Source: Sphingomonas sp. (GTDB lineage Bacteria > Pseudomonadota > Alphaproteobacteria > Sphingomonadales > Sphingomonadaceae). From it: a DNA stretch of 37,604 bases. Position 1 is the stretch's first letter, and each line of letters starts with the position of its first letter. The notes under the pieces were generated by a model. That model was not told where the DNA came from, ran no database searches, and saw nothing but the letters and a program-made list of their open reading frames with translations. The position numbers and the translations under genes were made by a program. Shown here one piece after another: positions 8,106-35,722 of this stretch. The stretch is taken from the NCBI GenBank assembly GCA_025356055.1, contig JANXUU010000078.1:1-37604 (forward strand), written 5' to 3'.

Positions 8106-8124
8106 GCTCCCACATTGCCGGACA

Positions 8125-8162
8125 TGAAAAGCCCGCTGGAAGCGATCCCGGCGGGCTTTTCA
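8125..8162. terminator. Bidirectional Rho-independent terminator
   Basis: A 12-base-pair stem TGAAAAGCCCGC / GCGGGCTTTTCA (8125-8136 and 8151-8162) encloses a 14-base loop. The A-run and T-run at the stem edges suit termination in both directions, between convergent dnaA and the lipoprotein gene at 8181. Confidence 0.85.
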
Positions 8163-8180
8163 GTGGCTCGTGCGAGTGCC

Positions 8181-8888
8181 CTAGTAGCGCCGCGCCGCGC
8201 GCGCAGCCGAAGGGACGGTAATCCTGACCGTCTCACCACTGCGCCCCGGGAAGCCGGTGAACATCGCCTCGACTAGGTTCGGCACGATCCGGCCGAGGTC
8301 GTCGTTCTGCGAGCGCGCCTTGGCGTGGCCCTCGAACACCGACTGGTTGTCGGCGTGTCGCCGGATGTCGACGTCGAGGTTGCTGCGATAGACGGTGTAG
8401 CTGGTGATGCCGCTATCGAATGGCGAGTAGAACGGATCGTCCCAGCCGTAATAGAAGGCGCTGCGGTAACCGCCGAACCGCGGGTAGTAATAGGGTCGCC
8501 CGAACGAACCGCCAAAGCCATAACCTAACCCGCCATAACCGCCATAGCCATTGCCGAAGCGGTTACCCGAAAACGGGTCGGACTGATATTCCGTCGTACC
8601 GCGGTCTACTGCATAGCCAACGTTTACAAGCAGGGTGGCGCCCTGAGGGGTCGTCGCCGGAACATAGCCCTGCGCCTGCATCGCCTGCGCGACATAGGCA
8701 CCGAAGCGCTGAAACTCGAGGCTGCCGTTGAGACGCGGGTCCATCGGAACGACAAAAAAGCTCTGCCCAGCAGGCGCGGGCATCATCTGGAAGCGCGACA
8801 CCTGGGCGGGGAAGCCGGTCTCGCAGGCCGAGAGGCCAAGGGTCGCCGCGCCTAACAACGCAACGGCGGCAAGTTTCATCTTACGCAT
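8181..8888 (-). CDS. DUF4136-like lipoprotein
   Basis: This 235-residue predicted lipoprotein has the N-terminus MRKMKLAAVALLGAA followed by the lipobox LSAC, so it is probably acylated at Cys21 and anchored to a membrane facing the periplasm. The body resembles DUF4136 proteins, whose function is unknown. A central glycine/tyrosine/phenylalanine-rich stretch (about residues 115-165) looks flexible and is followed by a beta-rich segment with YRSNLDVDIRR. The start ATG at 8888 has a GAGGGG ribosome site; an ATG three codons later is also possible. A longer frame from 8993 has no signal peptide at its start and is rejected. It follows trpS after about 100 bases and ends at a bidirectional terminator. 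Confidence 0.75.
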   Translation of the reverse strand: MRKMKLAAVALLGAATLGLSACETGFPAQVSRFQMMPAPAGQSFFVVPMDPRLNGSLEFQRFGAYVAQAMQAQGYVPATTPQGATLLVNVGYAVDRGTTEYQSDPFSGNRFGNGYGGYGGLGYGFGGSFGRPYYYPRFGGYRSAFYYGWDDPFYSPFDSGITSYTVYRSNLDVDIRRHADNQSVFEGHAKARSQNDDLGRIVPNLVEAMFTGFPGRSGETVRITVPSAARAARRY

Positions 8889-8989
8889 GAGTAGTAACCC
8901 CTCGAATCGGGAAAACAGCTTGTAGGAGAGCAGTATAACGCCTCCTTGCCTGAATAGTCGATGAAGCGAGCCGCAGAAGCGGCGAAGTG

Positions 8990-16464: not shown

Positions 16465-17592
16465 TTATGAAAACGCCTTGGCAATCACCCGTCCGTAAAT
16501 CCGCGAAAGCGCGTGAATATCTTCGATCGCCGCGCATTCGTCGAGCTTGTGCATCGTCGCGTTGGGTAGACCGAAATCGACCACCGGGCACAGCTTGATG
16601 AGGAAGCGGCCGTCCGAGGTGCCGCCGCCGGTCGAGAGTTCGGGCTCGATTCCGGTCTCTTCGCGGATGGCCGAAGCGACAAGGTCATAGAGCTTGCCCG
16701 GCGGGGTTAAGAATGCCTCGCCCGAAATTAGCGCGCGGACGGTCGAGCCCGGGGCCTCGCGGGTGGCCACCTCATTGACCATGCGGACAAGGTCACGGCC
16801 GTGCTGGATATTGTTGAAGCGGATGTTGAGCCGTGCTGTGGCGCCGCCAGGGATCACGTTGGGTGCACCGGGAGGGGCGCCGACGTCGGTGAATTCCAGC
16901 TTCGAAGGTGGAAAGGCGTCGTTGCCGTCGTCGAGGTGCACAGCATCGAGCGCCGCGACGAGGCGGGCGAGCGCGGGGATCGGGTTATTCGCCTTGTGCG
17001 GATAGGCGACATGGCCCTGCGTCCCGGGAACATCGATCCACATGTTGACCGATCCGCGCCGACCGATCTTGATCGTGTCGCCAAGGCGGGTTTCGCTTGT
17101 CGGTTCGCCGATGAGGATAAAGTCGGGGGCGAGCGCGCGCTCCTCGAGCCAGTCGATGATCGCGAGCATGCCGTGAAGCCCGGGGCCTTCCTCGTCGCCG
17201 GTGATGAGTAGCGAAAGGGTGCCTTTGTTCTGCGCGGGCGGGATCGCGGCGACGAAGGCGGCGATCGCGCTCTTCATGTCGTTTGCGCCGCGGCCGGTGA
17301 GCATGCCGTCTTCGATCCGGACGACGAACGGGTCACCCGTCCAGCCCTCGCCGGGCGGCACGACGTCGAGGTGGCCGGCAAAGCCGAAGTGGGGGGCACT
17401 AGTGCCGCGAATGGCGACGAGGTTCTCGACCGGGCCGTCCGGGGCATGGCCACGCGTGAAGCGGTGGATGGCAAAACCGAGCAGGACGAGCGCATCCTCA
17501 AGCACGTCGAACACCGCGCCGGTAGCGGGGGTGACGCTGGGCACCGCGATCAGCGCGGCGGCAAGCTCGACGGGATCGATCGGGTGCGTCAT
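16465..17592 (-). CDS. dapE: Succinyl-diaminopimelate desuccinylase
   Basis: DapE is the zinc M20-family hydrolase that removes succinate from N-succinyl-LL-diaminopimelate in lysine and peptidoglycan precursor synthesis. At 375 residues it has the normal length. Metal ligands are in FAGHLDVVPPG (His, then Asp in GRGANDMK) and the general base in TGDEEG. The IGEPTS segment and the C-terminal STGGGTSDGRF stretch are family specific. It is convergent with the GGDEF/EAL gene and divergent from the cupin gene, with only 26 bases between start codons. Confidence 0.95.
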   Translation of the reverse strand: MTHPIDPVELAAALIAVPSVTPATGAVFDVLEDALVLLGFAIHRFTRGHAPDGPVENLVAIRGTSAPHFGFAGHLDVVPPGEGWTGDPFVVRIEDGMLTGRGANDMKSAIAAFVAAIPPAQNKGTLSLLITGDEEGPGLHGMLAIIDWLEERALAPDFILIGEPTSETRLGDTIKIGRRGSVNMWIDVPGTQGHVAYPHKANNPIPALARLVAALDAVHLDDGNDAFPPSKLEFTDVGAPPGAPNVIPGGATARLNIRFNNIQHGRDLVRMVNEVATREAPGSTVRALISGEAFLTPPGKLYDLVASAIREETGIEPELSTGGGTSDGRFLIKLCPVVDFGLPNATMHKLDECAAIEDIHALSRIYGRVIAKAFS

Positions 17593-24070: not shown

Positions 24071-26641
24071 CTAGAAGTTCACGCTTGCCTCGACTCCGAC
24101 CATGCGACGGTCGCCGGGAGAGATGAACGACCCCCCGAACTCGATCGCGGGGATCACCTCGTTGAGATATTTCTTGTTCAACAGGTTGCGGGCGAAAGCG
24201 GTCAGCTTCCAGTTCTGGCCCTCCAATCCGCCGCGCAGGTTGACGACGCCATATGCCTTGCGCCGCGCGATCGAGAAGTTGGCGGTGCCGAAGCTGGCGG
24301 GGAGGAAGTTGACCGCCGAGATCGGGATGAGCCCGCTGAACAGCGTCGGACGATCCTCGTCCTGGACGGTGTGGAACCAGGTCGGGCCGGTGACACGGTA
24401 GTCGCCGCGGACGAAGGCTTTGAGCCCCGCGCTCAACGGCGCCTCGCCCTGTGCGCCGAGGTTGATCGTGTAATCCGCGGTATAGGGCGACTTGTTGCCG
24501 ACGGTGTAGGGCCGCGAGCTGTTCTTCTTGATCTTGCTGTCGGTGACGTTGACCGCGCCGAACAGCGAGATGCCGCGCACCGGCTTGACCGTCAGATTGA
24601 ACTCGGCGCCCTTCACGTCGACCCGGTCGATGTTCGAGACGACGCGCAGCAGGCCGAAGCTGCCGACGAAGAATTCGAAGAACTGCATGTCGCGGATACG
24701 AGTGTAATAGCCGGCGATGTCAAAATTGATCACGCCGCCCGCCAGATTGCCCTTGATCCCCGCTTCGAACGCCGACGAGCGCTCCTTGCGATACTGGTCG
24801 TTGATGATGACGCCGGCGTTGATCGTGCCGGGGGTGACGCCATTGTTGAAATTGGCGTTGACGATCGCCGCCGAGCCCTGATTGTTGAACCCGCCCGATT
24901 TGAAGCCCACGCCCCAGTCGGCGTAGAGGTTGAGGTCGTGCGTCGGACGATAGCTTAGCGCCAGCTTTGGCTCGAGCTGGTTGAAAGTCGATTTCTTGTC
25001 GGTGATGGGTCCAAATGCTTGCCCTGGGTTGATCGGGCCTCCGGTGATCGGGTCGGTCGCGGTCGGGACGCGGCTCGAGACCTGGCGATGTTCGCTGTCA
25101 TAGCGCAGCGCGAGGCTGGCTTTAAGCTCATCGGTGAGGGCATAATCGGCCGAGCCGAACACCGCGTAGACGTTGGTTCTGAACTTGTCGGCGAAGAGCT
25201 GCGAGGTCGGGTTGGTGGTGCCTGGGGCATTGTAGAGGTTGTGAATTACCCCTTGGCCGAGATCGCCGCCGAGGCTGACGCCGACCAGCCGGTCGATGTG
25301 GAGATAATAAGCGCCAAGCTGCCAGTCGAACGGGCCCTTGGAGGTCGATGCGAAGCGGACCTCGCCGCTGAAGTCCTTTTGGTTGCGGACCTGATATTGG
25401 GTGCCGTCGCAGGTCGTCGGCGAATAGGGACCGAAGGTCGATCCGGTCGCCGGCGCAAACAGGAATGGGACCGGGATCGCGCCGATGAAGCCGGGCGGGT
25501 TGACCGGATAGCCGGTCAGCGCGGCGGTCGTGGCGAAGCACTTGTTCTGCACCGCAAGATTGGTCGCGTTGGCCGGTGCGCCCAAAGCCGGCGAAATGTA
25601 GCGCGCGAAATCGGCCGAGGTGCCGTCGGCGACGAGATCCTGCTTGATGTTGGAATAGAGCCCCCACGCGGTCATCTTCACCGCTCCGAGATCCTGCTCG
25701 AGCTTGAGCGACGTCTCGAACGTGCGCTGGTCGTTGGTCGGGCGGATATTGCCGTAGAATCGAAACGGGTGATCGTTCACGTCTTGGTTGAACGCCGGGT
25801 TGAATGCGGCGAATGCAGGCAGATGGAATGCCGCGTTGAACGCGATCGAGGCACCTGATAGTTTGGCGTAGCGCGCCTTCCAGTCGAGCATCGTTCCCGG
25901 CGCAAGCTGGGCGATGATCCGTCCGTCGATGCCATAGACTTTCTGGTCGTCGACGCTGTGCGGGTCGGCGAGGAAGATGTTGCGGTAAAAGCCGTCGGTT
26001 TTGCGATAATTGCCTGACAGGACAAAGCCGACCCCCGGGGAGATCGGGCCCGCGATATAGGCCGAGCCTTCGATCGTGTTGTGGCTGGCATAGCTGGCGC
26101 GCGCGCCGCCTTCGAGATGGTCGCGCGGTTTGAGCGTCGTGACGACGATCGCGCCCGCAGCGGCGTTGCGGCCGTAGATCGCGCCTTGCGGGCCCTTGAG
26201 GACTTCGATCTGGCGGAGCGTCCCCTGGTCCTGGTTCAATTGCGCGGTGTTGGTCTTGAGGATGCCGTCGACGACCAGCGCGACCGAACTTTCGGCGTCG
26301 CGCGCGCCGTTGATCCCGCGGATGTTGATCTGGGTATCGCCTGCCTCGGCGGTGCCGGTGACGATCGTCACGCCGGGGGTCAGCTGGATGAACTGGTCGG
26401 CGGTCTTGACCCCGGTCTTGGCAAGCGTGTCGGCAGTCAGCACGGTAACCGAGGCGGGGACGTCGAGCAATCGCTCGTTCTGGCGCCGCGCGGTGACGAT
26501 GATGTCGCCCGGCGGCGGCGCGTCGTTGACCGAGGTCCGTGCCGGATCGGGCAAGGGCTGGCCCGCCTGCCGGGCAGACGCGGGCGCAGTCAACAAGGCC
26601 GCGAGCGCACATCCGCTGGTCAGGATCGTCATCATCTTCAT
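24071..26641 (-). CDS. TonB-dependent outer-membrane receptor
   Basis: This 856-residue protein is a TonB-dependent transporter that takes a substrate across the outer membrane using energy from TonB-ExbBD. It has a signal peptide (about residues 1-23, cleavage near ASA), a TonB-box-like GDIIVTARR at 45-53, a plug domain (to about 170, with INIRGINGARD and VEVLKGPQGAIYGRNAAAGAI) and a beta-barrel ending in an aromatic Phe, VEASVNF. The substrate cannot be read from sequence; sphingomonads use such receptors for many non-iron compounds. It is separated from the SnoaL-like gene by 28 bases and has a strong GGGGGA ribosome site, so it is the last gene of the racemase-SnoaL-SnoaL-receptor operon. 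Confidence 0.93.
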   Translation of the reverse strand: MKMMTILTSGCALAALLTAPASARQAGQPLPDPARTSVNDAPPPGDIIVTARRQNERLLDVPASVTVLTADTLAKTGVKTADQFIQLTPGVTIVTGTAEAGDTQINIRGINGARDAESSVALVVDGILKTNTAQLNQDQGTLRQIEVLKGPQGAIYGRNAAAGAIVVTTLKPRDHLEGGARASYASHNTIEGSAYIAGPISPGVGFVLSGNYRKTDGFYRNIFLADPHSVDDQKVYGIDGRIIAQLAPGTMLDWKARYAKLSGASIAFNAAFHLPAFAAFNPAFNQDVNDHPFRFYGNIRPTNDQRTFETSLKLEQDLGAVKMTAWGLYSNIKQDLVADGTSADFARYISPALGAPANATNLAVQNKCFATTAALTGYPVNPPGFIGAIPVPFLFAPATGSTFGPYSPTTCDGTQYQVRNQKDFSGEVRFASTSKGPFDWQLGAYYLHIDRLVGVSLGGDLGQGVIHNLYNAPGTTNPTSQLFADKFRTNVYAVFGSADYALTDELKASLALRYDSEHRQVSSRVPTATDPITGGPINPGQAFGPITDKKSTFNQLEPKLALSYRPTHDLNLYADWGVGFKSGGFNNQGSAAIVNANFNNGVTPGTINAGVIINDQYRKERSSAFEAGIKGNLAGGVINFDIAGYYTRIRDMQFFEFFVGSFGLLRVVSNIDRVDVKGAEFNLTVKPVRGISLFGAVNVTDSKIKKNSSRPYTVGNKSPYTADYTINLGAQGEAPLSAGLKAFVRGDYRVTGPTWFHTVQDEDRPTLFSGLIPISAVNFLPASFGTANFSIARRKAYGVVNLRGGLEGQNWKLTAFARNLLNKKYLNEVIPAIEFGGSFISPGDRRMVGVEASVNF

Positions 26642-26669
26642 CGCAGTTCCCCCTAGATCTTGTCGAGCG

Positions 26670-27068
26670 TCAAACGAGCACGTTGGCTCCGCTCATGTAG
26701 ACATATGCTTCCTGAAACTTCCCGTCGCGAAAGCGCCAGAAATTGGTGTTGCTGAGCCGCGTCACCAACCCGTCGGCGGCGGTCAGTACAGCTTCGAAGC
26801 TGGCCGAGATGCGGCCGTTGGCCTCGTCGACGGTGCAGGTGAAATCGCGGTGGACGATTGTTTCAAACGCGCCGAAGAATTCCTCGAGCATCCGCCGGAT
26901 CGCGGGCTTGCCGGCGTGACGGGTGAAGCTGGTCTGGACGGTGAGCAGCGCCTCGTCGTGGAAGCAGGCGAGCGTTGCCACTAGGTCCTTCGCGTCGACG
27001 CTTCCGAAATAGGATTTCGTTGCAAACTCGATCAGCTCGGCGCGCGACAGCGTGGGCTCATATTGCAT
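26670..27068 (-). CDS. SnoaL/NTF2-like protein (second of a tandem pair)
   Basis: This 132-residue protein looks like a SnoaL/NTF2-like fold: an N-terminal helix (RAELIEFATKSYFGSVDAKD), FHDEALLTVQTSF, a helix with MLEEFFGAF and a four-stranded sheet ending in AYVYMSGANVLV. The fold serves small-molecule binding, isomerisation or hydration, but no catalytic residue can be named here. It resembles the upstream gene product, above all in the last strand (YVYMSGxN) and in the middle of the protein. The ATG shares a base with the upstream stop (TGATG), indicating translational coupling. A longer reading from 27380 is a shadow inside the neighbour. Confidence 0.78.
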   Translation of the reverse strand: MQYEPTLSRAELIEFATKSYFGSVDAKDLVATLACFHDEALLTVQTSFTRHAGKPAIRRMLEEFFGAFETIVHRDFTCTVDEANGRISASFEAVLTAADGLVTRLSNTNFWRFRDGKFQEAYVYMSGANVLV

Positions 27069-27499
27069 CACGCGTCTCCCGGCTGGAGGAGGTTGTCGCC
27101 GCTCATGTAGACGTAGACGCGGTAGAAGCGGTCGCCTTTCAGATAAAAGCGGTTGCAATTTTCGTAGCGCAGTTCGTCGCCGCCGTTGGGAGTTATCAGA
27201 ACGGTGAACTGGCTGTTGACCGAACTTGAATGCGGATCGGCAGTATGGACGAAATTGCCGTGCCAGATCGAAGAGAAGTCGGTGAACAGTTTCTCGAACA
27301 TTGCGCGGATGGCGGTGTCGCGGCCGGTGTGTACCGTGTTCGAGGTCACTTCGGTGAGGAGGGCATCCTCGGTGAAGCAATCCAGCACGTCGCTCAGCCG
27401 CTTGTTGTCAACGCCGTGGAAATAGCGTTTCGTCACGATGTCGATATAGAAGGGATAGGGCAGCGCCTGCTGTACGGCGCCCGCTTCGCTCCAGCTCAT
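27068..27499 (-). CDS. SnoaL/NTF2-like protein (first of a tandem pair)
   Basis: This 143-residue SnoaL-like protein has PFYIDIVTKRYFHGVDNKRLSDVLDCFTEDALLTE near the start and a sheet that ends RVYVYMSGDNLL. The layout matches the next gene, so the two look like paralogues and could form a heterodimer. The ATG overlaps the racemase-like stop as ATGA. Function is inferred only from context: an enzyme or binding protein of the catabolic cluster, for example an isomerase or dehydratase of an intermediate. Confidence 0.78.
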   Translation of the reverse strand: MSWSEAGAVQQALPYPFYIDIVTKRYFHGVDNKRLSDVLDCFTEDALLTEVTSNTVHTGRDTAIRAMFEKLFTDFSSIWHGNFVHTADPHSSSVNSQFTVLITPNGGDELRYENCNRFYLKGDRFYRVYVYMSGDNLLQPGDA

Positions 27500-28248
27500 G
27501 CCCAGCCCTTTCGAATATCGCCGTCCTTGGCCACTTCAGGAGCTGGAAACGCAATCTTGCTGTGCGTCAGCCCGCAGGTGAGCAGCAGCTCGAGTTGCTT
27601 GTAGGCGACCTGGCCCGGGTTGATGACCGGCACCGGTAAGACGCTCGCTAGATAGGCGGCGGACTGGTGCATGGTGGTCGAACCGAGCACGATGACGTCG
27701 GCGCCATCCTCCTCGATCGCCGCCTTGGCCTCTTCGCGCAGCTTCTCGAAGATCACCTCTTCCTTGCCGGCGAGCAAATCGGTGACATCGGGGCGGGTGT
27801 CGATCGACCGGAGCGAGGCGACGCGGTCCCACCAGCCATATTCGGTAAGAGTCTTCTCGTAGAGCGGGAACCATTCGTCCCACATGGTGAGGATGGTAAA
27901 GCGCTTGCCAAGCATCATCGCGGTAGCGAACGCGGCCTCGCCCGGGCCAACCACCGGGATCGATAGACGAGAGCGGAGCGCGCGGGGGCCGCTGTCGCTG
28001 ACCGTGTCGATGAGGACGCCGGCGTAGCCTTCTTCCTCGGCGGTGATTCCGGCCTGGAATACGGTCCAGTCCATCAGCAGCATGTCGTGATAGCTGTCGC
28101 CAAGAGCGGCGCCCCATTTGACCGCGGCGAATTCGGGCTTGAATCCTGGCGCTACGAACTCGGCAGGAAGCTGAAGCGCGCGATTGGCAACGCCCGCGTC
28201 ATCCATCGGAATCGGTACGATGACCTTGATGCGCCGCTCGGCAGCCAT
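27496..28248 (-). CDS. Asp/Glu/hydantoin racemase-superfamily protein lacking both catalytic cysteines
   Basis: This 250-residue protein has the two-fold alpha/beta architecture of hydantoin and Asp/Glu racemases. The anchors are KVIVPIPMDD at the start, IPVVGPGEAAF in the middle and ADVIVLGSTTM, then PVPVINPGQVAYKQLELLL. In racemases the two halves each carry a catalytic cysteine, after GYxxVxIAC and VLGC respectively. Here the aligned positions appear to be Thr82 (in VLIDTVSDSG) and Ser190 (in VLGSTTM); the only cysteine is Cys225. A normal two-base racemase mechanism is therefore unlikely, and it may be a lyase, hydrolase or binding protein. The start ATG 28248 has AGGAAG upstream; a longer frame to 28287 runs into the promoter. 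It is first of a four-gene operon. Confidence 0.8.
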   Translation of the reverse strand: MAAERRIKVIVPIPMDDAGVANRALQLPAEFVAPGFKPEFAAVKWGAALGDSYHDMLLMDWTVFQAGITAEEEGYAGVLIDTVSDSGPRALRSRLSIPVVGPGEAAFATAMMLGKRFTILTMWDEWFPLYEKTLTEYGWWDRVASLRSIDTRPDVTDLLAGKEEVIFEKLREEAKAAIEEDGADVIVLGSTTMHQSAAYLASVLPVPVINPGQVAYKQLELLLTCGLTHSKIAFPAPEVAKDGDIRKGWA

Positions 28249-28271
28249 GCTCGACTTCCTTTCGTTCAATC

Positions 28272-28300
28272 CCGATATTGTATACAAAACTGGGAGTCAA
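28272..28300 (-). promoter_or_regulatory. Promoter of the racemase-SnoaL-receptor operon with TTGTATACAA operator in its spacer
   Basis: On the minus strand TTGACT (28300-28295) and TATCGG (28277-28272) are 17 bases apart. The perfect 10-base palindrome TTGTATACAA occupies 28278-28287 inside the spacer, adjoining the -10. Such palindromes are typical sites of GntR/FCD regulators, and the GntR gene starts 43 bases away on the other strand. Binding here should block RNA polymerase. The predicted transcript would start near 28265, with a 16-base leader holding AGGAAG. Confidence 0.7.
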
Positions 28301-28330
28301 GCAGTTGCGTCGCTGCGGGAACCCGGCTAA

Positions 28331-28999
28331 ATGCATGTCATGTCGCGCGCATCCGACCGGGCCTATGCCGAAATCAGGGGCCTGATCCTGTCGGGCGATG
28401 CGCCGCCGGGCGCGCAGCTGAAGGAAGAGCAGCTTGCGGATATCTGCGGGGTCTCACGAACTCCCGTGCGCGATGCGCTGCGCCGGCTTGAGGCCGAGCT
28501 ATTTGTCGTCAGATCCGATTCGCAGCGCGCCTTCGTCGCTCAGTGGAGCAGCGAGGATCTGTCCGAAATGTTCACCTTGCGCGGGATGCTCGAGGGTCAC
28601 GCGGCGGCACGGGCGGCGCGACGGTTCACGGCGGAGGGGCTGAGCGCGCTCAGGGCCTGCAACGCGCGGATCGAGCAGGCGGTTGTCAGCAGTGAGCAGG
28701 ACATCGCCGACTTCCTTGAGCATAATCGCGAGTTCCACCGGCTGATCGTCGAGGCGGCGCAGTCCAAATATCTTGAGTCGAGCCTGGCAATGCTGGTCGA
28801 GCAACCCATCGTCCGCCGCACCGCGATGCACTATGGCCCTGCCCAGATGGTGCAGTCGGTGCGCGAGCATCAGGAGTTGATCCAGGCCTTTGCGGAGCGC
28901 GACCCGGACTGGGCGCGGGCAGTGATGACAGCGCACATCCGCCGTGCCTTTCACGCCTTCGCCAAGACCGCAAAGCGGGTCAGTGACGAAGTGAGTTGA
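28331..28999 (+). CDS. GntR-family (FCD/FadR-type) transcriptional regulator
   Basis: This 222-residue regulator has an N-terminal winged helix (about residues 5-75; SDRAYAEIRGLILSG, LADICGVSRTPVRDALRRLE) and a C-terminal all-helical FCD domain. The FCD metal-site histidines are seen in EFHRLI, REHQELI and TAHIRRAF. These regulators are commonly repressors released by a carboxylic-acid-type ligand. The start is ATG 28331 or ATG 28340. Two copies of the palindrome TTGTATACAA, in front of the two arms of the cluster, are its likely operators, so it probably controls itself and both operons. Its end overlaps the convergent isochorismatase-like gene by 20 bases. Confidence 0.92.
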   Translation: MHVMSRASDRAYAEIRGLILSGDAPPGAQLKEEQLADICGVSRTPVRDALRRLEAELFVVRSDSQRAFVAQWSSEDLSEMFTLRGMLEGHAAARAARRFTAEGLSALRACNARIEQAVVSSEQDIADFLEHNREFHRLIVEAAQSKYLESSLAMLVEQPIVRRTAMHYGPAQMVQSVREHQELIQAFAERDPDWARAVMTAHIRRAFHAFAKTAKRVSDEVS

Positions 29000-29615
29000 G
29001 GTAGGCGATCATCGCGTCGCATTCGACCACTTCGGCATATTTGGCCTGAAGGTCGAACAAATTGCCCTCGTGCACCGCCGGGTCACGATCGGCCGAGGCG
29101 TCGCGGACGACGAACGGCGCGAAACCCTCGCACAGCGCATCGAGCGCAGTTGCGCGGACGCAGCCAGATGTAGTCAGCCCGGCGACAAGGATAGTGTCGA
29201 TTTCGCGGGCTCGCAACGTATCGCCAAGGCCGGTCCCGAAAAAGGCGCTGGGGTATTGCTTGGTGACGACGAGGTCATCCGCCGCGGGTGAGAGTTCAGC
29301 CGTAAAATCACCAAACGGATTGCCGCGATCGAACGCTTTCAGCGCGGGCGCCTTGCGGTAGAAATGGCCGCCGTCGCGGTGCGGGTCGCCGGCGACATAT
29401 TCGACCCGGGTAAAGACCACCGGCGCCGACACGCTGCGCGCCGCCGCGGCGAGCCGCATAGCCTTGTCGCGAGCCATCTCCGGTCGAGCATAGAGACCGC
29501 AGGCCGGATCGAAATAGGCACGCGCAAAATCGACCAGGATTAGCGCCGGATGTGCACCTGGCGAGAGGCGACCGTTGAAACCGGCATGCGCATAATCATC
29601 GTTGATATCCGTCAT
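28980..29615 (-). CDS. Isochorismatase-family cysteine amidohydrolase (N-carbamoylsarcosine amidase-like)
   Basis: This 211-residue cysteine hydrolase belongs to the isochorismatase superfamily. The Asp-Lys-Cys triad is intact: Asp29 in ILVDFARAYF, Lys119 in VTKQYPS and Cys152 in GLTTSGCVRATALDA. The TTSGCVRAT loop resembles N-carbamoylsarcosine and maleamate amidases more than isochorismatases, so cleavage of a carbamoyl or amide group of a pathway intermediate is likely. It is read toward the GntR gene, overlapping it by 20 bases, and is divergent from the lyase operon with 61 bases between start codons; that gap holds the second TTGTATACAA palindrome. The precise substrate is unknown. Confidence 0.85.
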   Translation of the reverse strand: MTDINDDYAHAGFNGRLSPGAHPALILVDFARAYFDPACGLYARPEMARDKAMRLAAAARSVSAPVVFTRVEYVAGDPHRDGGHFYRKAPALKAFDRGNPFGDFTAELSPAADDLVVTKQYPSAFFGTGLGDTLRAREIDTILVAGLTTSGCVRATALDALCEGFAPFVVRDASADRDPAVHEGNLFDLQAKYAEVVECDAMIAYLNSLRH

Positions 29616-29660
29616 TCGCCTGATCTTTCCTTATATGGCGGCTATACAATCCCCGACGAC

Positions 29661-29674
29661 GTTTGTATACAAAC
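29661..29674. promoter_or_regulatory. 14-base palindromic operator before the lyase-hyuAB operon
   Basis: GTTTGTATACAAAC is a perfect palindrome. Its core TTGTATACAA is identical to the site at 28278-28287. It ends two bases before the lyase ATG. A weaker copy, CTATACAA at 29642-29649, lies about 23 bases away centre to centre, near two helical turns. Predicted GntR site; it could control both divergent transcripts. Confidence 0.7.
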
Positions 29675-29676
29675 CT

Positions 29677-30609
29677 ATGGACTCAATCGATTTGATAGAG
29701 GTCTCTCCTCGCGACGGGCTGCAGAATGAGTCCCGCGCCGTGTCGACCGCCGACAAGCTGTTGCTGATCGAGCGGCTGGTGGCGATCGGGGCCAGGCGCA
29801 TCGAAGTGACGAGCTTCATCAATTCGCGCCGTGTGCCGCAGATGGCCGATGCCGACGCGGTCGCCGCAGCGCTGCCCGATGCGCCCGGAGTCAGTTTTAT
29901 CGGCCTATGCCTCAATGAACGGGGCGTCGAACGCGCCATCGCGAGCTCACAGGGCGCGCGCGGGATTGACGAGGTCGGCTGCGTCATGGTCGCGACTGAC
30001 GCGTTCGGGATCGCCAACCAGGGTCAGACCGTGCCTCAGGGACTTATCGCCAACCGCGCGATGATCGCCGCCGCCAATGCCGCCGGCCGCGATGCGCAAG
30101 TGACCATTGCGGGCAGCTTCGGTTGTCCATTCGAAGGGCCGGTCGATCCCGACCGCGTGCTTGGCATTGCCGAGGAACTGGCGGCGTTCGGCGCTCGCGA
30201 GATCGGATTTGCCGACACCATCGGTGTTGCCGTGCCGCGTCAGGTTGGCGCACTGATCGAACAGGCGCGGCGGCGGCTGGGCAACGAGTTTCCGATCCGC
30301 GTCCACCTCCACGACACGCGCGGGATGGCACCGGCCAATGCCTGGGCGGCTTACGAAGCGGGCTGCCGGATCTTCGACAGTGCGCTGGGCGGGCTGGGCG
30401 GCTGTCCGTTCGCGCCCGGCGCGGCGGGCAATCTCGCGACCGAGGAATTGGTCTATATGTTCGAGCGCGCCGGAATCGCGACGGGAATTGCCCTTGAGGA
30501 CGCGCTCGCCGCCAATCGCTGGCTGGCCGCGGTAATGGGCAAGGCATTGCCGAGCCGGGTCGGTCGCGCCGGGAATTTCACGACACAAAAACAGCGGGAG
30601 AGCGCATGA
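29677..30609 (+). CDS. HMG-CoA lyase-like enzyme (HMGL family)
   Basis: This 310-residue TIM-barrel lyase of the HMGL family cleaves 3-hydroxy-3-methylglutaryl-CoA or related 3-hydroxyacyl-CoAs by retro-aldol reaction. The catalytic set of HMG-CoA lyase is present: Arg12-Asp13 (SPRDGLQNE), Glu43 (RIEVTSF), metal ligands His200 and His202 (VHLHDTRG) and the active-site Cys233 in GLGGCPFAPGAAGN. The length is typical. In HMGCL a TPN-type loop follows strand 3; here it reads CLNERG, so the substrate may differ. ATG 29677 fits the family N-terminus; an ATG at 29635 would place the operator inside the coding region. No Shine-Dalgarno site precedes it. The stop overlaps the hyuA start. Confidence 0.9.
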   Translation: MDSIDLIEVSPRDGLQNESRAVSTADKLLLIERLVAIGARRIEVTSFINSRRVPQMADADAVAAALPDAPGVSFIGLCLNERGVERAIASSQGARGIDEVGCVMVATDAFGIANQGQTVPQGLIANRAMIAAANAAGRDAQVTIAGSFGCPFEGPVDPDRVLGIAEELAAFGAREIGFADTIGVAVPRQVGALIEQARRRLGNEFPIRVHLHDTRGMAPANAWAAYEAGCRIFDSALGGLGGCPFAPGAAGNLATEELVYMFERAGIATGIALEDALAANRWLAAVMGKALPSRVGRAGNFTTQKQRESA

Positions 30610-32648
30610 GCTATCGTCTTGGAGTCGATGTCGGGGGGACGTTCACCGACCTTCTGGTGATCGACGACGCCACCGGCCGCACCTGGCGCGACAAGGTGCC
30701 ATCGACGCCGCATGATCCATCCGAGGCGGTCATCACCGGCGCGAAGGCGGTATGCGCGGCGGCGGGGATCGGGCCGGGCGAATTGTCGCTGTTCCTCCAC
30801 GGTACGACGGTCGCGACCAATGCCGTGCTCGAGCACAAGATTGCGCGGGTCGGGCTGATCGTGACCGAGGGCTATCGCCATATATTGCAGATCGCGCGCA
30901 GCCTGGTACCGGGCGGACTCGCGGCGTGGATTATCTGGCCCAAGCCCGAACCGATGGCGCCGCTGGAGGCGACGATCGAGGCACCGGGCCGGATCGGGGC
31001 GGACGGCGAAATCGTGCGTGAGCTCGACGAGGTCGCGCTGCGGGTGAATATCCGCCGACTGGCCGAGGAGAAGGTCGAGGCGGTCACCGTCTGCCTGATC
31101 AATTCGTATCTCAACCCGGTCCACGAGCGGCGCGTGGCGGAGATTGTCGCCGAGGAACTGCCCGGCGTCCCGGTCAGCATTTCGGCGGACATCCTGCCCG
31201 AGATGCAGGAATATGAGCGCGCACTGACGACCGTCGCCAACAGCGCGGTGCGGCCGACGGTGTCGCGCTATGTCGGCAACCTGATGCGCGACTTGGCCGA
31301 GTGGGGGAGCGAGGCGAAACTGTCGCTGCTGCGTTCGGACGGCGGGCTGATGTCGGCCGAGAAGAGCCGCACGGCGCCGGTCAATCTGCTGATGTCGGGG
31401 CCAGCAGGCGGGGTCGCGGGCGCGGTGTGGATTGCGGGCAATTCGGGGCACGCCAATGTGCTTACCCTCGACATGGGCGGCACTTCGACCGACGTTGCGC
31501 TGATCGAGGATTTCCGGCCGCGACTGCGGCGCGAGACGAGCGTCGGGCATCTGACGGTGCGCGCTTCGTCGCTCGACGTGAAGACGGTCGGCGCGGGCGG
31601 CGGATCGATCGCCAGCGTGCCCGAACTGACCAAGGCGCTGCGCGTCGGGCCGCAGTCGGCGGGCGCGGTGCCGGGGCCGGCCGCTTATGGGCGCGGCGGC
31701 GAATTGCCGACCGTGACCGATGCCAATGTGGTGCTCGGTTTCCTTCCGGAGAATTTGCTCGGCGGAAGTTTCAAGCTCGACCGCGAGGCGTCCAAGCGCG
31801 CGGTCCAGACGGTGGCCGATGCGCTCGGCCTGTCGCTGATGGAAGCCGCGGCGGGGATCGTTGCGATCGTCAACGAAACGATGTTCGGTGCGCTGCGGCT
31901 GGTGTCGGTCCAGCAGGGCTATGACCCGCGCGATTTCGCGCTGATGGCGTTTGGCGGGGCGGGTCCGCTGCACGGCAATGCGATGGGCGTGCTGATGGGC
32001 AGCTGGCCGGTGATCATCCCGCCCTCTCCCGGCGTGCTGTGTGCCTACGGCGATGCGACGACGCGATTGAGGGTCGATGCGCAGCGCAGCTTCAATCGCC
32101 TCGTCACTCACACCGATGACGCCGAAGTGCGCGGAGTGATCGCCGAGGTCAGCGAGCAGGTCGCCGCCGAACTCGAGGCCGAGGGGGTCGCGCGCGACGA
32201 CCAGGAATTGATGGTCGAGATCGACATCCGCTATGCGGGGCAAGCCTTCGAAGTGCCGCTGTCGGTGCCGCTCGGGACGAGCATCGCCGGGCTGGTCGAG
32301 CGGTTCGACACCGAGCACAAAAGATTGTTCACCTTCAATCTTCCGGTGCCGCAAGAGCTGGTCAACATCCGCGTCGTCGCACTGGGCACCAAGGCCAATG
32401 TCAGCGCGCAGGCGATCGCGCGCGGCGACGGCGATCCGGCGGCGGCGCGACTTTACGATCAGGAGGTGTGGATGGACGGGCGGACGCAGTCGGCGACCAT
32501 CTATGACCGCTCGAAACTGCGCGCCGGGGACAAGGTGCGCGGACCGGCGGTGGTAACCGAGATGGATGCCACGACACTGATCCTGTCGGGTCACATCGCC
32601 GAGGTCGACACGACCGGCAACATCCTGATCAACCCGGAGGCCCGCTAG
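30606..32648 (+). CDS. hyuA: HyuA subunit of a hydantoinase/oxoprolinase/carboxylase (ATP-binding)
   Basis: This 680-residue protein is the ATP-dependent A subunit of the family of N-methylhydantoinase, 5-oxoprolinase, acetone and acetophenone carboxylase. It activates a carbonyl or carboxyl group by phosphorylation for the partner HyuB. The actin-like ATP site is seen as DVGGTFTD at 8-15, HGTTVATNAVLE, the SGPAGGV and DMGGTSTDVAL region, and GAGGGSI. The length is normal. The start overlaps the lyase stop as ATGA and the stop directly abuts the HyuB ATG, so expression is tightly coupled. The specific reaction, hydrolysis of an imide or lactam or carboxylation of a ketone, cannot be decided from sequence. 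Confidence 0.92.
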   Translation: MSYRLGVDVGGTFTDLLVIDDATGRTWRDKVPSTPHDPSEAVITGAKAVCAAAGIGPGELSLFLHGTTVATNAVLEHKIARVGLIVTEGYRHILQIARSLVPGGLAAWIIWPKPEPMAPLEATIEAPGRIGADGEIVRELDEVALRVNIRRLAEEKVEAVTVCLINSYLNPVHERRVAEIVAEELPGVPVSISADILPEMQEYERALTTVANSAVRPTVSRYVGNLMRDLAEWGSEAKLSLLRSDGGLMSAEKSRTAPVNLLMSGPAGGVAGAVWIAGNSGHANVLTLDMGGTSTDVALIEDFRPRLRRETSVGHLTVRASSLDVKTVGAGGGSIASVPELTKALRVGPQSAGAVPGPAAYGRGGELPTVTDANVVLGFLPENLLGGSFKLDREASKRAVQTVADALGLSLMEAAAGIVAIVNETMFGALRLVSVQQGYDPRDFALMAFGGAGPLHGNAMGVLMGSWPVIIPPSPGVLCAYGDATTRLRVDAQRSFNRLVTHTDDAEVRGVIAEVSEQVAAELEAEGVARDDQELMVEIDIRYAGQAFEVPLSVPLGTSIAGLVERFDTEHKRLFTFNLPVPQELVNIRVVALGTKANVSAQAIARGDGDPAAARLYDQEVWMDGRTQSATIYDRSKLRAGDKVRGPAVVTEMDATTLILSGHIAEVDTTGNILINPEAR

Positions 32649-34520
32649 ATGCCCGCTCAGATCATCCAGGCCAATTTGACTCCGTTCTCACCGGTCGAGA
32701 TCGACCCGGTCACGCTCGACATCATCGAAAATGCGCTGCGCAATGCGCGGATCGAGATGGACGCGACGCTGGTCCGTACCGCCATGTCGCCGGGTATCCG
32801 CGAGCAAGGCGATGCCTTCCCGCTGATCGCCGACCCCGACGGCAAGATGATCGTCGGCCAGTTCGGCAGCTTCATCGACGGATTTTTGCGCGGCTTCGAC
32901 GGGACGATCGAGGAGGGCGACATGATCCTCCTCAGCGATCCCTACAGCTGCGAGGGCGCGGTCAGCCATTCAAATGACTGGCTGGTGCTGTTGCCGGTCT
33001 ATCGCGAGGGACGGCTGGTGGCGTGGACTGCGATGTTCGGTCACCAGTCCGACATCGGCGGCAAGGTCGCCGGGTCGATGCCGATCGACGCGCGCTCGAT
33101 CTTCGAGGAGGGGGTGCGGATCCCGCCGGTCAAGATCTACGCCAAGGGCGAGTATAACGAGGATTTGATCAAGCTGGTGATGCACCAGACGCGCAAGCCC
33201 GACTGGTGCGCGGCCGATTTGAACGCGCTGATCGCGTCGTGCCGGGTGGCGGCGCGGCGGGTCGAGGAGATGTGTCGGCGGTTCGGCGATGACGTCTATG
33301 TCTCGGCGACCACTGCGCTGCTGGCGCGCAACCACCGCGCGATGAAGTCGCTGATTGAAAGCTCGGTCGGGATCGATAAGGTGACGTTCGAGGATTATAT
33401 CTGCGACGACGGGGTCGGCTACGGGCCGTACAAGATCAAGTGCACGATGTGGCGCGAGGGCGAGAAGGTCATCCTCGACTTCGCCGGGACCGACCCGCAG
33501 TCCGACGCGTCGATCAACTTCTACCTCAACGAGAACATGTTCAAAATGTTCTTCGGCATCTACATGATCATGGTTTTTGATCCGCAGATCATGTTCAACG
33601 ACGGTTTCTATGACCTGATCGACGTGCGGATTCCCGAAGGCTCGCTGCTGAAACCGCGCTATCCCGCGGCGCTGTCGGGACGGACCCATGCGCTCGGGCG
33701 GATCTTCGATATCTTGGGCGGATTGCTCGGCCAGCGGACGCCAGAGTTCCTGTGCGCGGCGGGCTTCTCGTCGTCGCCGCACCTGATGTATTCGGGGCGC
33801 GACGATCAGGGCGAGTGGTTCCAGCTGTTCCAGATCGGCTTCGGCGGGATCCCCGGCAAGCCGTTCGGCGACGGGCCCGACGGGCATTCGCTATGGCCCG
33901 GCTTCACCAACGTGCCGAACGAATTTCTCGAGCGCTATTTCCCGCTCAGAATCGAACGATACGAGGCGATTGCGGACTCGGGCGGAGCGGGGAAATTTCG
34001 CGGCGGCAACGGCATTTTGATGAGTTACCGCTTCCTTGCGGCGGGGACCGTGTCGATCCATGACGACCGCTGGTTCACTTACCCATGGGGGGTCAACGGT
34101 GGCCGCCCTGGAGCGCGGGCGCGGAAAATCCACGAAACCGCCGATGGCAAGCAGACGATCGTCGCCAACAAGCTCGACAGCTTGGCGGTGGAGGCTGGCG
34201 ACTTGCTCCACTTCATCACCTGGGGCGGCGGCGGATGGGGCGACCCGCTCGAGCGTGATCCGGCGCTGGTGGCAAAGGAAGTACGTCAGGGGCTGGTCAC
34301 TGCCGAAGGGGCAAAAGCCTATGGCGTCGTGATCGCCGCCAACGGATCGGTCGACGAGGCCGCAACCGTAAAACTGCGCGACGAGATGCGTGGGGCTGGC
34401 ACATCGGGCGAGCTGTTCGACCGTGGCGGAACGATCGACGAATTGCGCGCGCGATGCGAGGCCGAGACCGGACTTGCCCCACCTCGACCGCCAGTTTGGC
34501 ATCAGGCCGTAGCCGCCTGA
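32649..34520 (+). CDS. hyuB: HyuB subunit of a hydantoinase/oxoprolinase/carboxylase
   Basis: This 623-residue B subunit carries the reaction centre of the HyuAB enzyme. Conserved stretches are DPVTLDIIENALRNAR, SDPYSCEGAVSHSNDW, FGHQSDIGGKVAGSMP and DFAGTDPQS. In place of the common DPYxGGTHLPD the loop is longer by three residues, yet keeps HxxD (His107, Asp110), which bind a metal in structurally studied members; His122 and Asp125 (GHQSDIGG) are also kept. At 623 residues it is larger than most HyuB proteins (about 520-590), in part through a C-terminal extension after the WGGGGWGDPLERD signature. It starts immediately after the HyuA stop with GGAGG ahead, and ends in a TGATG overlap with the CoA-transferase. 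Confidence 0.92.
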   Translation: MPAQIIQANLTPFSPVEIDPVTLDIIENALRNARIEMDATLVRTAMSPGIREQGDAFPLIADPDGKMIVGQFGSFIDGFLRGFDGTIEEGDMILLSDPYSCEGAVSHSNDWLVLLPVYREGRLVAWTAMFGHQSDIGGKVAGSMPIDARSIFEEGVRIPPVKIYAKGEYNEDLIKLVMHQTRKPDWCAADLNALIASCRVAARRVEEMCRRFGDDVYVSATTALLARNHRAMKSLIESSVGIDKVTFEDYICDDGVGYGPYKIKCTMWREGEKVILDFAGTDPQSDASINFYLNENMFKMFFGIYMIMVFDPQIMFNDGFYDLIDVRIPEGSLLKPRYPAALSGRTHALGRIFDILGGLLGQRTPEFLCAAGFSSSPHLMYSGRDDQGEWFQLFQIGFGGIPGKPFGDGPDGHSLWPGFTNVPNEFLERYFPLRIERYEAIADSGGAGKFRGGNGILMSYRFLAAGTVSIHDDRWFTYPWGVNGGRPGARARKIHETADGKQTIVANKLDSLAVEAGDLLHFITWGGGGWGDPLERDPALVAKEVRQGLVTAEGAKAYGVVIAANGSVDEAATVKLRDEMRGAGTSGELFDRGGTIDELRARCEAETGLAPPRPPVWHQAVAA

Positions 34521-35722
34521 TGCCCGGTGGAGGGGGGCAAACGGGCGCGCTCGACGGTATCCGCGTGATCGAGATGGGCCAACTGATCGCCGGGCCGTTC
34601 TGCGGCCAGTTGCTCGGCGACATGGGGGCCGAGGTGATCAAGATCGAGCCACCGGGGAAAGGCGACCCGATGCGCGACTGGGGCCGCGGTGAATATCGCC
34701 TGTGGTGGGAAGTCGTCGCGCGTAACAAGAAGAGCGTCAGCGCGAACCTGCGGGTTCCCGAGGGGCAGGAACTGGCGCGACGGCTGATCGCGACTGCCGA
34801 CATCTTGATCGAGAATTTCCGCCCCGGCACACTCGAGAAATGGGGCCTTTCGCCCGAAACGCTCCACGCTGAGAATCCCGGTCTGATTATCGTTCGAGTA
34901 TCGGGCTATGGCCAGACCGGCCCTTATTCCGACCGCGCCGGGTTCGGCGGGATCGGCGAGGCGATGGGCGGATGGCGCAACATCGTCGGCGATCCCGACC
35001 GCCCACCGAGCCGGATGGGCGTGTCGATCGGTGACAGTCTGGCGGCGACCTATGGTTGCATGGGGGCGCTCGCCGCGCTCCACCACCGCGACAAGACCGG
35101 CGAGGGGCAAGTTGTCGACAGCGCACTCTACGAAGCGGTGCTGCAGGTGATGGAAAGTCTCGTTCCCGACTACAGCATCATGGGCTATGTTCGCGAGCGG
35201 TCCGGCTCGGTGCTTCCGGGAATTGCGCCGTCGAACGTCTATCGCTGCCGAGACGGAGATTATCTGATCGGCGCCAATCAGGACAGTGTGTTCGGGCGGC
35301 TGTGCGTGGCGATGGGTAAGCCCGAATTGGCGAACGACCCGCGCTATGTTGATCACATTGCGCGCGGACAGCACCAGATCGAGCTCGACCAGCGAATCGA
35401 AGCATGGACCCTGACGCTGCCGGTGGTCGAGGTTGAGCAGCTGATGATCGAACACGGCATCCCCGCGGGCCGCGTCTATACCCCCGCCGACATGCTCGCC
35501 GACCCTCATTTTCAGGCGCGCGAGGCGATCGTCGACGTGCCCCATCCCAAATGGGACAAGCTCAAGATGCAGAGCGTCTTCCCGCGGCTGTCGAAAACGC
35601 CCGGTGGAATCAGGTCGGTGGCGCCTCAAACCGTCGGCGAAGACAATGGCGAGATCTACGGAAGCATGCTTGGTTTGGGCCAGGAGCGGCGCGACGAGCT
35701 GGCGGAGCGTGGCGTTATCTAG
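34520..35722 (+). CDS. CaiB/BaiF family (family III) CoA-transferase
   Basis: This 400-residue protein transfers CoA from a donor acyl-CoA to a carboxylic acid, with the catalytic aspartate forming a mixed anhydride. The N-terminal LLGDMGAEVIKIEPPGKGDP, NFRPGTLEKWGL and GYGQTGPYSDRAGFG signatures are present, and the catalytic residue is probably Asp172 in SIGDSLAA. The length is typical. It would activate a product of HyuAB or of the amidase for cleavage by the HMGL-like enzyme, which needs a CoA thioester; this is inference from operon order. The ATG overlaps the hyuB stop codon, and the start at 34454 of a longer frame lies inside hyuB. Confidence 0.92.
   Translation: MPGGGGQTGALDGIRVIEMGQLIAGPFCGQLLGDMGAEVIKIEPPGKGDPMRDWGRGEYRLWWEVVARNKKSVSANLRVPEGQELARRLIATADILIENFRPGTLEKWGLSPETLHAENPGLIIVRVSGYGQTGPYSDRAGFGGIGEAMGGWRNIVGDPDRPPSRMGVSIGDSLAATYGCMGALAALHHRDKTGEGQVVDSALYEAVLQVMESLVPDYSIMGYVRERSGSVLPGIAPSNVYRCRDGDYLIGANQDSVFGRLCVAMGKPELANDPRYVDHIARGQHQIELDQRIEAWTLTLPVVEVEQLMIEHGIPAGRVYTPADMLADPHFQAREAIVDVPHPKWDKLKMQSVFPRLSKTPGGIRSVAPQTVGEDNGEIYGSMLGLGQERRDELAERGVI

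Follow-up and report, generated by a model that had tools for sequence, protein, structure and literature searches.

A conserved ten-gene block in Sphingomonadales predicted to act as a GntR-controlled regulon for cyclic amide or imide breakdown

Introduction

What compound is broken down by a compact block of ten genes in the genome of Sphingomonas sp., and do these genes act as one system? The block occupies positions 24071-35722 of a 37,604-nt stretch of contig JANXUU010000078.1 (the window, to whose positions all coordinates refer unless a locus is named) and brings together the two subunits of a hydantoinase-family enzyme (HyuA and HyuB), an HMG-CoA-lyase-like enzyme (HMGL), a CaiB/BaiF-type coenzyme A (CoA) transferase (CaiB), an isochorismatase-fold hydrolase (ISO), a racemase-fold protein (RAC), two SnoaL-fold proteins (SnoaL1 and SnoaL2), a TonB-dependent receptor (TBDR) and a regulator of the GntR/FCD family (GntR). 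A previous sequence-only reading of the window proposed a single regulon whose products import, open, deamidate, activate and cleave one nitrogen-containing or ketonic compound. The DNA holds ten genes in four divergent units, two identical operators, a block that is inherited together and intact catalytic motifs. From these features we put the chance at slightly better than even (roughly 0.55) that the block constitutes one GntR-controlled catabolic regulon for the uptake and breakdown of a cyclic amide or imide, with a cyclic imide or lactam yielding a dicarboxylic half-amide as the most likely class of substrate.

Two operons and two single genes share an operator

The ten genes fall into four transcription units, comprising a leftward operon, TBDR-SnoaL2-SnoaL1-RAC (-), of which RAC is the first gene, the single genes GntR (+) and ISO (-), and a rightward operon, HMGL-HyuA-HyuB-CaiB (+); coordinates and strands were checked against the sequence and families were assigned with Pfam and NCBIfam. 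Genes within the operons overlap or nearly so, as the sequence-only reading had described, with junctions ranging from 4-nt overlaps (RAC/SnoaL1 and, as ATGA, HMGL/HyuA) through 1-nt overlaps in TGATG (SnoaL1/SnoaL2 and HyuB/CaiB) and abutting genes with no gap (HyuA/HyuB) to a 28-nt gap (SnoaL2/TBDR). The 3' ends of GntR and ISO overlap by 20 nt.

Both divergent intergenic regions carry an exact copy of the palindrome TTGTATACAA. Allowing no more than one mismatch, the window holds two copies against 0.07 expected from shuffles, and two copies occurred in 0 of 100 shuffles, so the pair exceeds chance and the described arrangement of two operons and two single genes sharing operator palindromes holds up. 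The 2.52-Mb genome assembly has one further exact copy only (contig 80, L077:7434-7443), which is intergenic: it closely follows the end of a GMP-synthase gene and precedes a small minus-strand open reading frame (ORF) by ~16 bp. This copy may be the site of another regulator or a third target of the same one. The small ORF resembles, by eye, a ribbon-helix-helix antitoxin.

The block and its operator are conserved in Sphingomonadales

Of 396 Sphingomonadales genomes searched with RAC, 57 gave a match; 41 of these (the window's own included) reached ≥68% identity and the next ones ≤53%. In stretches of up to 20 kb taken around 36 of the other 40 close-RAC genomes, content was mostly kept and order reshuffled, with ISO in several places, TBDR on either side of RAC, and CaiB following HyuB or running divergently from HMGL; the HyuAB arm was missing from the stretch in a few relatives (L065, L075, L076). 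From a further scan we took the best 80 of 228 loci as a set of named loci, all titled as sphingomonads except two titled only Alphaproteobacteria, and some of their genera we presume to belong to the sphingomonad family. Gene presence (tblastn, ≥40% identity over ≥30% of the query) was counted in the 58 loci of ≥20 kb, and all ten genes occurred together in 43 of them; RAC was found in every one, and the counts for the other genes are given in Table 1.

The operator is conserved alongside the genes. Of 80 named loci, 74 have its core, TGTATACA, within the 400 bp preceding RAC, and 65 of 72 have it likewise ahead of HMGL. Among 64 palindromes of the same composition it was the commonest in 114 overlapping loci, a set that is not independent because the loci of the two scans share genomes, with 216 copies (next 138, 127 and 92), 211 of which sit between core genes of the cluster. 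Given its conservation ahead of both RAC and HMGL, sequence footprinting supports one regulator for both arms. The sequence-only reading had named a lack of cluster conservation in relatives as one outcome that would count against it; what the neighborhoods revealed instead was largely retained content and a retained operator.

The genes flanking the block, an Mg-chelatase gene at 22357 and an AI-2E transporter gene at 35838, were absent from all 40 related stretches inspected and are therefore neighbors rather than members. In 24 of 30 other genomes of the genus the two lie on one contig at a spacing of 208-6371 bp (median ~1.9 kb; RAC presence was tested in part of the 30), which leaves no room for the block, compared to 11,976 bp in the window, and in the one other genus member with RAC (G208) they are 1.7 kb apart while the cluster sits ~370 kb away, which indicates that the block was gained or lost as a unit. 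Sequence conservation thus points to the ten-gene block being a genuine catabolic regulon that relatives retain and that occupies different sites in the chromosome.

Additional genes accompany the block in some relatives. Parasphingorhabdus-type loci (L040, L044, L073, L074, L098) partly carry a second HMGL (37-38%) and CaiB (28-29%) pair, part of them also a FAD-binding dehydrogenase, and L098 an MFS transporter and an NmrA-like gene. Among six Erythrobacter/Porphyrobacter-type loci (L052, L055, L057, L058, L059, L062), five have an NMT1-like gene and four a DUF1989 gene just beyond TBDR (the Pfam assignments cover L052 and L059); a link to urea or guanidine suggested by these genes was set aside as local synteny.

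A seven-gene core lies within the block

A match to HyuB at E≤1e-250 (this HyuB) was found in 131 of the 396 genomes and in all 41 with RAC at ≥68%, at 59% identity in one and ≥72% in the rest. From the 90 genomes with this HyuB but no RAC at ≥68%, we hand-picked 40, two of which (G054, G179) carry a 48-53% RAC relative elsewhere in the genome. Around HyuAB in these genomes (presence at E≤1e-8 over 30% of the query), HMGL and CaiB were each present in 36, TBDR in 32, and GntR and ISO in 30 each, and neither RAC nor SnoaL occurred in any of the 40 neighborhoods. All seven genes TBDR, GntR, ISO, HMGL, HyuA, HyuB and CaiB were together in 24 of 40, the operator core lay upstream of HMGL in 32 of 36, and L240-L242 have the window's gene order minus RAC-SnoaL1-SnoaL2. 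As seven genes and the operator recur without RAC and the SnoaL pair, we regard these seven as the core and RAC-SnoaL1-SnoaL2 as an addition. The eight families in the title of the sequence-only reading are all present but consequently do not make up a minimal set, and the racemase-fold RAC, which that title did not name, belongs with them.

This nesting bears on whether the two arms belong together at all. Were they unrelated catabolic arms that are neighbors by accident, a HyuAB core without RAC-SnoaL would be expected, as would the ~16 kb between RAC and HyuB in G058 and their separate contigs in G023. Yet every genome with a close RAC has this HyuB, against about a third overall, and the same operator stands on both arms in most loci, so that an accidental neighborhood is highly improbable.

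Table 1. Genes and operator palindromes of the block, with occurrence among the 58 named loci of ≥20 kb.
Feature	Position	Strand	Evidence
TBDR, TonB-dependent receptor (uptake)	24071..26641	-	Pfam TonB barrel 2e-32, Plug 1.5e-19; 58/58 loci
SnoaL2, SnoaL/NTF2-fold	26670..27068	-	Pfam SnoaL_2 2.8e-09; 58/58 loci
SnoaL1, SnoaL/NTF2-fold	27068..27499	-	Pfam SnoaL_2 2e-07; 58/58 loci
RAC, Asp/Glu/hydantoin-racemase fold, Thr82 and Ser190 for catalytic Cys	27496..28248	-	Pfam Asp_Glu_race
Operator palindrome TTGTATACAA, between divergent RAC and GntR	28278..28287	.	exact match
GntR/FCD transcription regulator, presumed to bind the operator	28331..28999	+	Pfam FCD 4.3e-26, GntR 3.6e-16; 58/58 loci
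ISO, isochorismatase-fold cysteine hydrolase	28980..29615	-	Pfam 2.5e-34; PDB 26st 8e-36; 44/58 loci
Operator palindrome TTGTATACAA, between divergent ISO and HMGL	29663..29672	.	exact match
HMGL, HMG-CoA-lyase-like	29677..30609	+	NCBIfam PRK05692 278 bits (cut-off 246); 55/58 loci
HyuA, ATP-binding subunit	30606..32648	+	Pfam Hydantoinase_A 5.7e-85; PDB 7hk5 9.2e-135; 57/58 loci
HyuB, presumed metal-binding subunit	32649..34520	+	Pfam Hydantoinase_B 1.2e-147; 57/58 loci
CaiB/BaiF class III CoA-transferase, scoring best as a dicarboxylate type	34520..35722	+	Pfam CoA_transf_3 1.4e-127; 57/58 loci

HyuAB resembles ATP-dependent ring-opening hydrolases

The best solved relative of HyuA is an N-methylhydantoinase (7hk5). 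In 34 of 34 sequences HyuA carries the ATP phosphate motifs DVGGTFTD and LD(V/M)GGTSTD and the adenosine motif GA(V/L)PGP, placing it by motif among the ATP-dependent hydantoinase/oxoprolinase hydrolases; a study of caprolactamase gives the equivalents as DxGGTxTD and DxGGT (phosphate) and GxxPGP (adenosine) (PMC8453981). HyuB has REQGD and FGHQ(S/T)D in 34 of 34 sequences each and a DPY..SH..D stretch in at least 26 of 34, and these Asp/His motifs resemble the metal site of CapB (D41, H99, D101, H124), a comparison made with CapB outside the alignment.

The suggestion that HyuAB might instead carboxylate a ketone, in the manner of acetone or acetophenone carboxylase, with CaiB and HMGL processing the beta-keto or hydroxy acid, draws on true homology, as HyuA matches the acetophenone carboxylase gamma subunit at 1.7e-85. 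By NCBIfam, however, it is nearer the hydrolases, scoring 513 bits against caprolactamase alpha and 293 against acetophenone carboxylase gamma, both below cut-off. Where the alpha' subunit of acetophenone carboxylase has Lys at the site of CapA Asp302 (PMC8453981), 34 of 34 HyuA sequences have Asp, the site being located by counting from the P2 motif. No extra carboxylase subunit (gamma or epsilon) was found among the ten genes by Pfam, the rest of the genome not having been searched, and ISO would be left without an explanation. Two loci outside the order (L172, L208) carry a HyuAB-ISO set with RAC and SnoaL2 adjoining DUF1302, MMPL and BNR-type genes, with DUF1329 too in L172. Gene sets of MMPL/DUF1302 type go with uptake of hydrophobic compounds, a point in favor of the ketone reading; nonetheless, we consider carboxylation improbable, and this option of the sequence-only reading is disfavored.

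ISO, CaiB and HMGL could complete the route

The gene that had been called an amidase belongs to the isochorismatase-fold cysteine hydrolases and is a predicted amide or carbamoyl hydrolase. Among proteins of solved structure it is closest in sequence to an N-carbamoylsarcosine amidohydrolase (26st) and a putative isochorismatase (3ot4). The catalytic Cys is present in 30 of 30 sequences, the Lys in at least 23 and the Asp in at least 15, residues which we take to form the Asp-Lys-Cys triad, and by these motifs ISO would fall in the N-carbamoylsarcosine/maleamate amidohydrolase clade. HMGL scores above the cut-off of PRK05692 (Table 1), with RDG in 33 of 33 sequences and LGGCPFAP in at least 25; its His-x-His-Asp motif reads His-x-His-Asn in at least 11. 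CaiB has the family fold by Pfam and SIGD in 34 of 34 sequences, the Asp of which is presumably the conserved class III CoA-transferase motif residue, and its best NCBIfam models, both below cut-off, are succinate-glutarate and mesaconate CoA-transferases.

HyuAB keeps similar company outside the order

Beyond Sphingomonadales we examined 40 loci covering 41 of 49 HyuB places, at 54-76% HyuB identity; the remaining eight (five partial matches, one second copy and two others) were left out by choice. As controls we hand-picked 20 regions on contigs of the same genomes, two of which contained their own HyuAB. Applying E≤1e-8 over 30% of the query, ISO was present in 27 of the 40 loci, HMGL in 15, a PEPM-type lyase in 8, either lyase in 20, CaiB in 17, LeuC in 8 and RAC in 5, and 18 of the 40 had ISO and a lyase together, compared to none of the 20 controls. 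ISO, the lyases, CaiB and LeuC were each absent from all 20 controls, and RAC was present in one (L226). The theme that recurs outside the order is ring opening, amide hydrolysis, hydration or dehydration, and C-C cleavage, as CoA ester or free acid. The sequence of steps proposed by the sequence-only reading, from ring opening through deamidation and CoA activation to cleavage, is consistent both with this company and with the active-site motifs.

Several loci hold further genes. In the control L226 (G795), RAC, SnoaL1 and SnoaL2 lie at 7305-8903 next to a PhzF-like fragment; the contig also bears the HyuAB-PEPM-LeuCD-ISO set of this genome (L193). On a Neorhizobium plasmid, a RAC relative occurs together with HyuAB-family genes (30-36% identity) and with genes for a cysteine hydrolase, a PEPM-type lyase and an MmgE/PrpD protein. 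Rhizobial and Tistrella plasmids (L162, L163, L168, L169) carry two adjacent racemase-fold genes along with FAD oxidoreductase, PEPM-type lyase and MmgE/PrpD-type matches. Gene pairs like those annotated as polysaccharide deacetylases in Acidiphilium lie near HyuAB, RAC or a second ISO-like gene in L166, L168, L169, L170, L270, L271 and L277; one in L166 matches Pfam Polysacc_deac_1, and the stretch of the first such gene in L270 matched no Pfam family. Polysaccharide-deacetylase-like proteins include cyclic-imide hydrolases and allantoinases.

RAC has a racemase fold without the catalytic cysteines

The RAC ORF (27496-28287) matches Asp_Glu_race (PF01177) at 3.5e-28. Its predicted model (pLDDT 84.2, pTM 0.84) finds allantoin racemases as best Foldseek matches (TMq 0.79-0.81), in agreement with a racemase fold. 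Aligned to 3qvj, however, it has Thr82 and Ser190 where 3qvj has cysteines, and in RAC and 40 relatives (41 of 41) neither catalytic position is Cys, the first being Thr (Ser in two far relatives) and the second Ser. With both catalytic cysteines lost throughout, simple racemization is unlikely. SnoaL1 and SnoaL2 have a common conserved C-terminal pattern (by eye) and are probably paralogues.

These features weigh on a route in which HyuAB would open a 5-substituted hydantoin, ISO would decarbamoylate the product, RAC would act at the ring stereocenter, and CaiB and HMGL would finish the skeleton. The N-methylhydantoinase and N-carbamoylsarcosine amidohydrolase that stand closest to HyuA and ISO fit such a ureide, as do the allantoin and hydantoin racemases among the fold relatives of RAC and the FAD-dependent oxidoreductases, possible amino-acid oxidases, near some relatives (L158, L162, L163, L166). 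Set against this, RAC lacks both cysteines in every sequence, the ten genes include no amino-acid oxidase or transaminase, flanking families recur in at most 5 of 40 loci (not all of them identified), and there is no obvious need for a CoA-transferase and a lyase. On balance we judge a ureide route unlikely.

We suggest, tentatively and with low confidence, that RAC and the two SnoaL proteins constitute a new racemase-fold enzyme, with Thr82 and Ser190 in place of its two catalytic cysteines, which prepares the ring for HyuAB in an undescribed, uphill cyclic-imide route. A candidate substrate of such a route is the alkylated maleimides from tetrapyrrole breakdown, because a TonB-type receptor suits large substrates and ATP would be needed for a re-closing ring, and because some HyuAB relatives pair with LeuCD or with PEPM-type lyases (8 of 40 loci each). 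Enzymes of these two types carry out dimethylmaleate hydration and dimethylmalate cleavage.

Three RAC relatives of ~50% identity (L069, L071, L072; near position 9.6-10.5 kb of the loci) lie beside styrene/indole-monooxygenase-like and AMP-ligase genes, with a Rieske oxygenase in L069 and L071. IifA, an enzyme of the indole pathway, has been described as a cofactor-independent oxygenase (PMC6221969, PMC10934121). RAC and these three relatives gave no match (tblastn, E≤1e-4) in the Acinetobacter baumannii locus L232, which holds SDR, monooxygenase, flavin reductase and AraC relatives, or in the Alloyangia locus L233. Taking L232 as the iif locus, we rejected identity of RAC with IifA on that lack of a match; the IifA sequence itself was not compared.

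Relation to described systems

The block appears to combine known enzyme families in a way that is undescribed in the literature searched, where we did not find this gene combination and where coverage of subscription journals was mostly lacking. CapAB, 5-oxoprolinase and N-methylhydantoinase are alike in their ATP motifs, the Asp/His motifs of HyuB look like the CapB metal site, and the two-subunit layout is that of CapAB, whereas the HyuAB of the block scores below the caprolactamase cut-offs and is partnered by ISO, CaiB and HMGL. Pseudomonas NS671 has an ATP-dependent hydantoin operon, hyuABC (PMC8453981). The likeness to our block lies in HyuA, HyuB and a racemase-fold gene occurring together, but the block adds ISO, CaiB, HMGL, the SnoaL pair and TBDR, and its RAC has no cysteines. 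The NS671 operon is reportedly accompanied by a racemase. HyuC is an M20-type N-carbamoyl-amino-acid amidohydrolase, and no M20 gene is among the ten, the window's M20 peptidase (16465-17592) lying outside the block.

The creatinine route via N-methylhydantoin uses HyuAB and N-carbamoylsarcosine amidohydrolase, and CaiB and HMGL are not known to be part of it; the block shares HyuAB and an N-carbamoylsarcosine-amidohydrolase-like enzyme with that route but has neither creatinine deaminase nor sarcosine oxidase among its ten genes. In the anaerobic indoleacetate cluster, IaaCE is of HyuAB type and proposed to open a lactam at the expense of ATP (PMC8453981). The block differs in having ISO and HMGL. 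A CaiB-type CoA-transferase is said to follow lactam opening in that cluster, which would be a further likeness, and the cluster reportedly also has a mutase and a decarboxylase, which the block lacks. Plasmids of Acidiphilium multivorum JZ-6 and Geobacillus Y412MC52 carry the same five families, HyuA, HyuB, ISO, CaiB and HMGL, side by side; they have isopropylmalate-dehydratase-like LeuCD in addition, and the stretches shown do not include RAC, SnoaL or TBDR. An N-methylpyrrolidone cluster, considered as the nearest described case, was set aside; no paper on it was found in the literature searched.

A proposed route and the evidence weighing against it

In the route that we propose for a cyclic amide or imide, GntR would repress both divergent promoters until an inducer binds, and TBDR would import the nitrogen-containing ring compound. 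RAC and the SnoaL pair may contribute an extra preparatory step (isomerization, hydration or ring activation) that is dispensable in some relatives. HyuAB would then use ATP to drive the uphill hydrolytic opening of a cyclic amide or imide, and ISO would hydrolyze the resulting half-amide (or carbamoyl group), freeing ammonia. CaiB would move CoA from succinyl-CoA or a similar donor onto the dicarboxylate, and HMGL would cleave the 3-hydroxyacyl-CoA in a retro-Claisen reaction to acetyl-CoA and a keto acid.

A number of observations count against this proposal. Within the order, 14 of 58 loci have no ISO in the stretch, and 3 of 58 have no HMGL. The three ISO-less genomes examined (G388 and G1119 gave identical places and were counted as one) each have an ISO relative of 49-53% elsewhere, but that of G254 adjoins another copy of HyuB, which it may serve. 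No operator core was found in the short stretches around displaced ISO (L238-L239) or displaced HyuB (L235-L236), which counts against full regulon control of displaced genes; L237 and L234 from the same sets, which are not displaced copies, are likewise without it. The link between GntR and the operator is inferred from position and conservation. Outside the order, neither lyase is present in half of the 40 loci, at odds with a fixed pathway, and ISO is absent from 13; the HyuAB of pJE1 and pTomTYG65b, in the stretches shown, is without ISO, HMGL and CaiB and is partnered by redox enzymes and a succinate-semialdehyde dehydrogenase. These partners and the 13 ISO-less loci mean that the presence of HyuAB is not enough by itself to define the pathway. 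RAC and the SnoaL pair have no assigned step in the route, and the specificities of HMGL and CaiB are guessed from family scores, with CaiB below equivalog cut-offs. As relatives of ISO act on carbamoyl groups too, there is also room for a ureide ring.

Conclusion

Here, we provide evidence consistent with a GntR-controlled regulon for cyclic amide or imide catabolism in Sphingomonadales. The overall interpretation of the sequence-only reading was largely right as to the regulon and the logic of its steps, while its ketone option, its amidase label and its gene set needed correction. With this HyuB in about a third of the sampled Sphingomonadales genomes (131/396) and the whole core in 24 of 40 loci lacking RAC, a common nutrient is probably behind the regulon, which offers a defined operator with a candidate regulator, four assayable enzymes and a racemase-fold protein free of catalytic cysteines.

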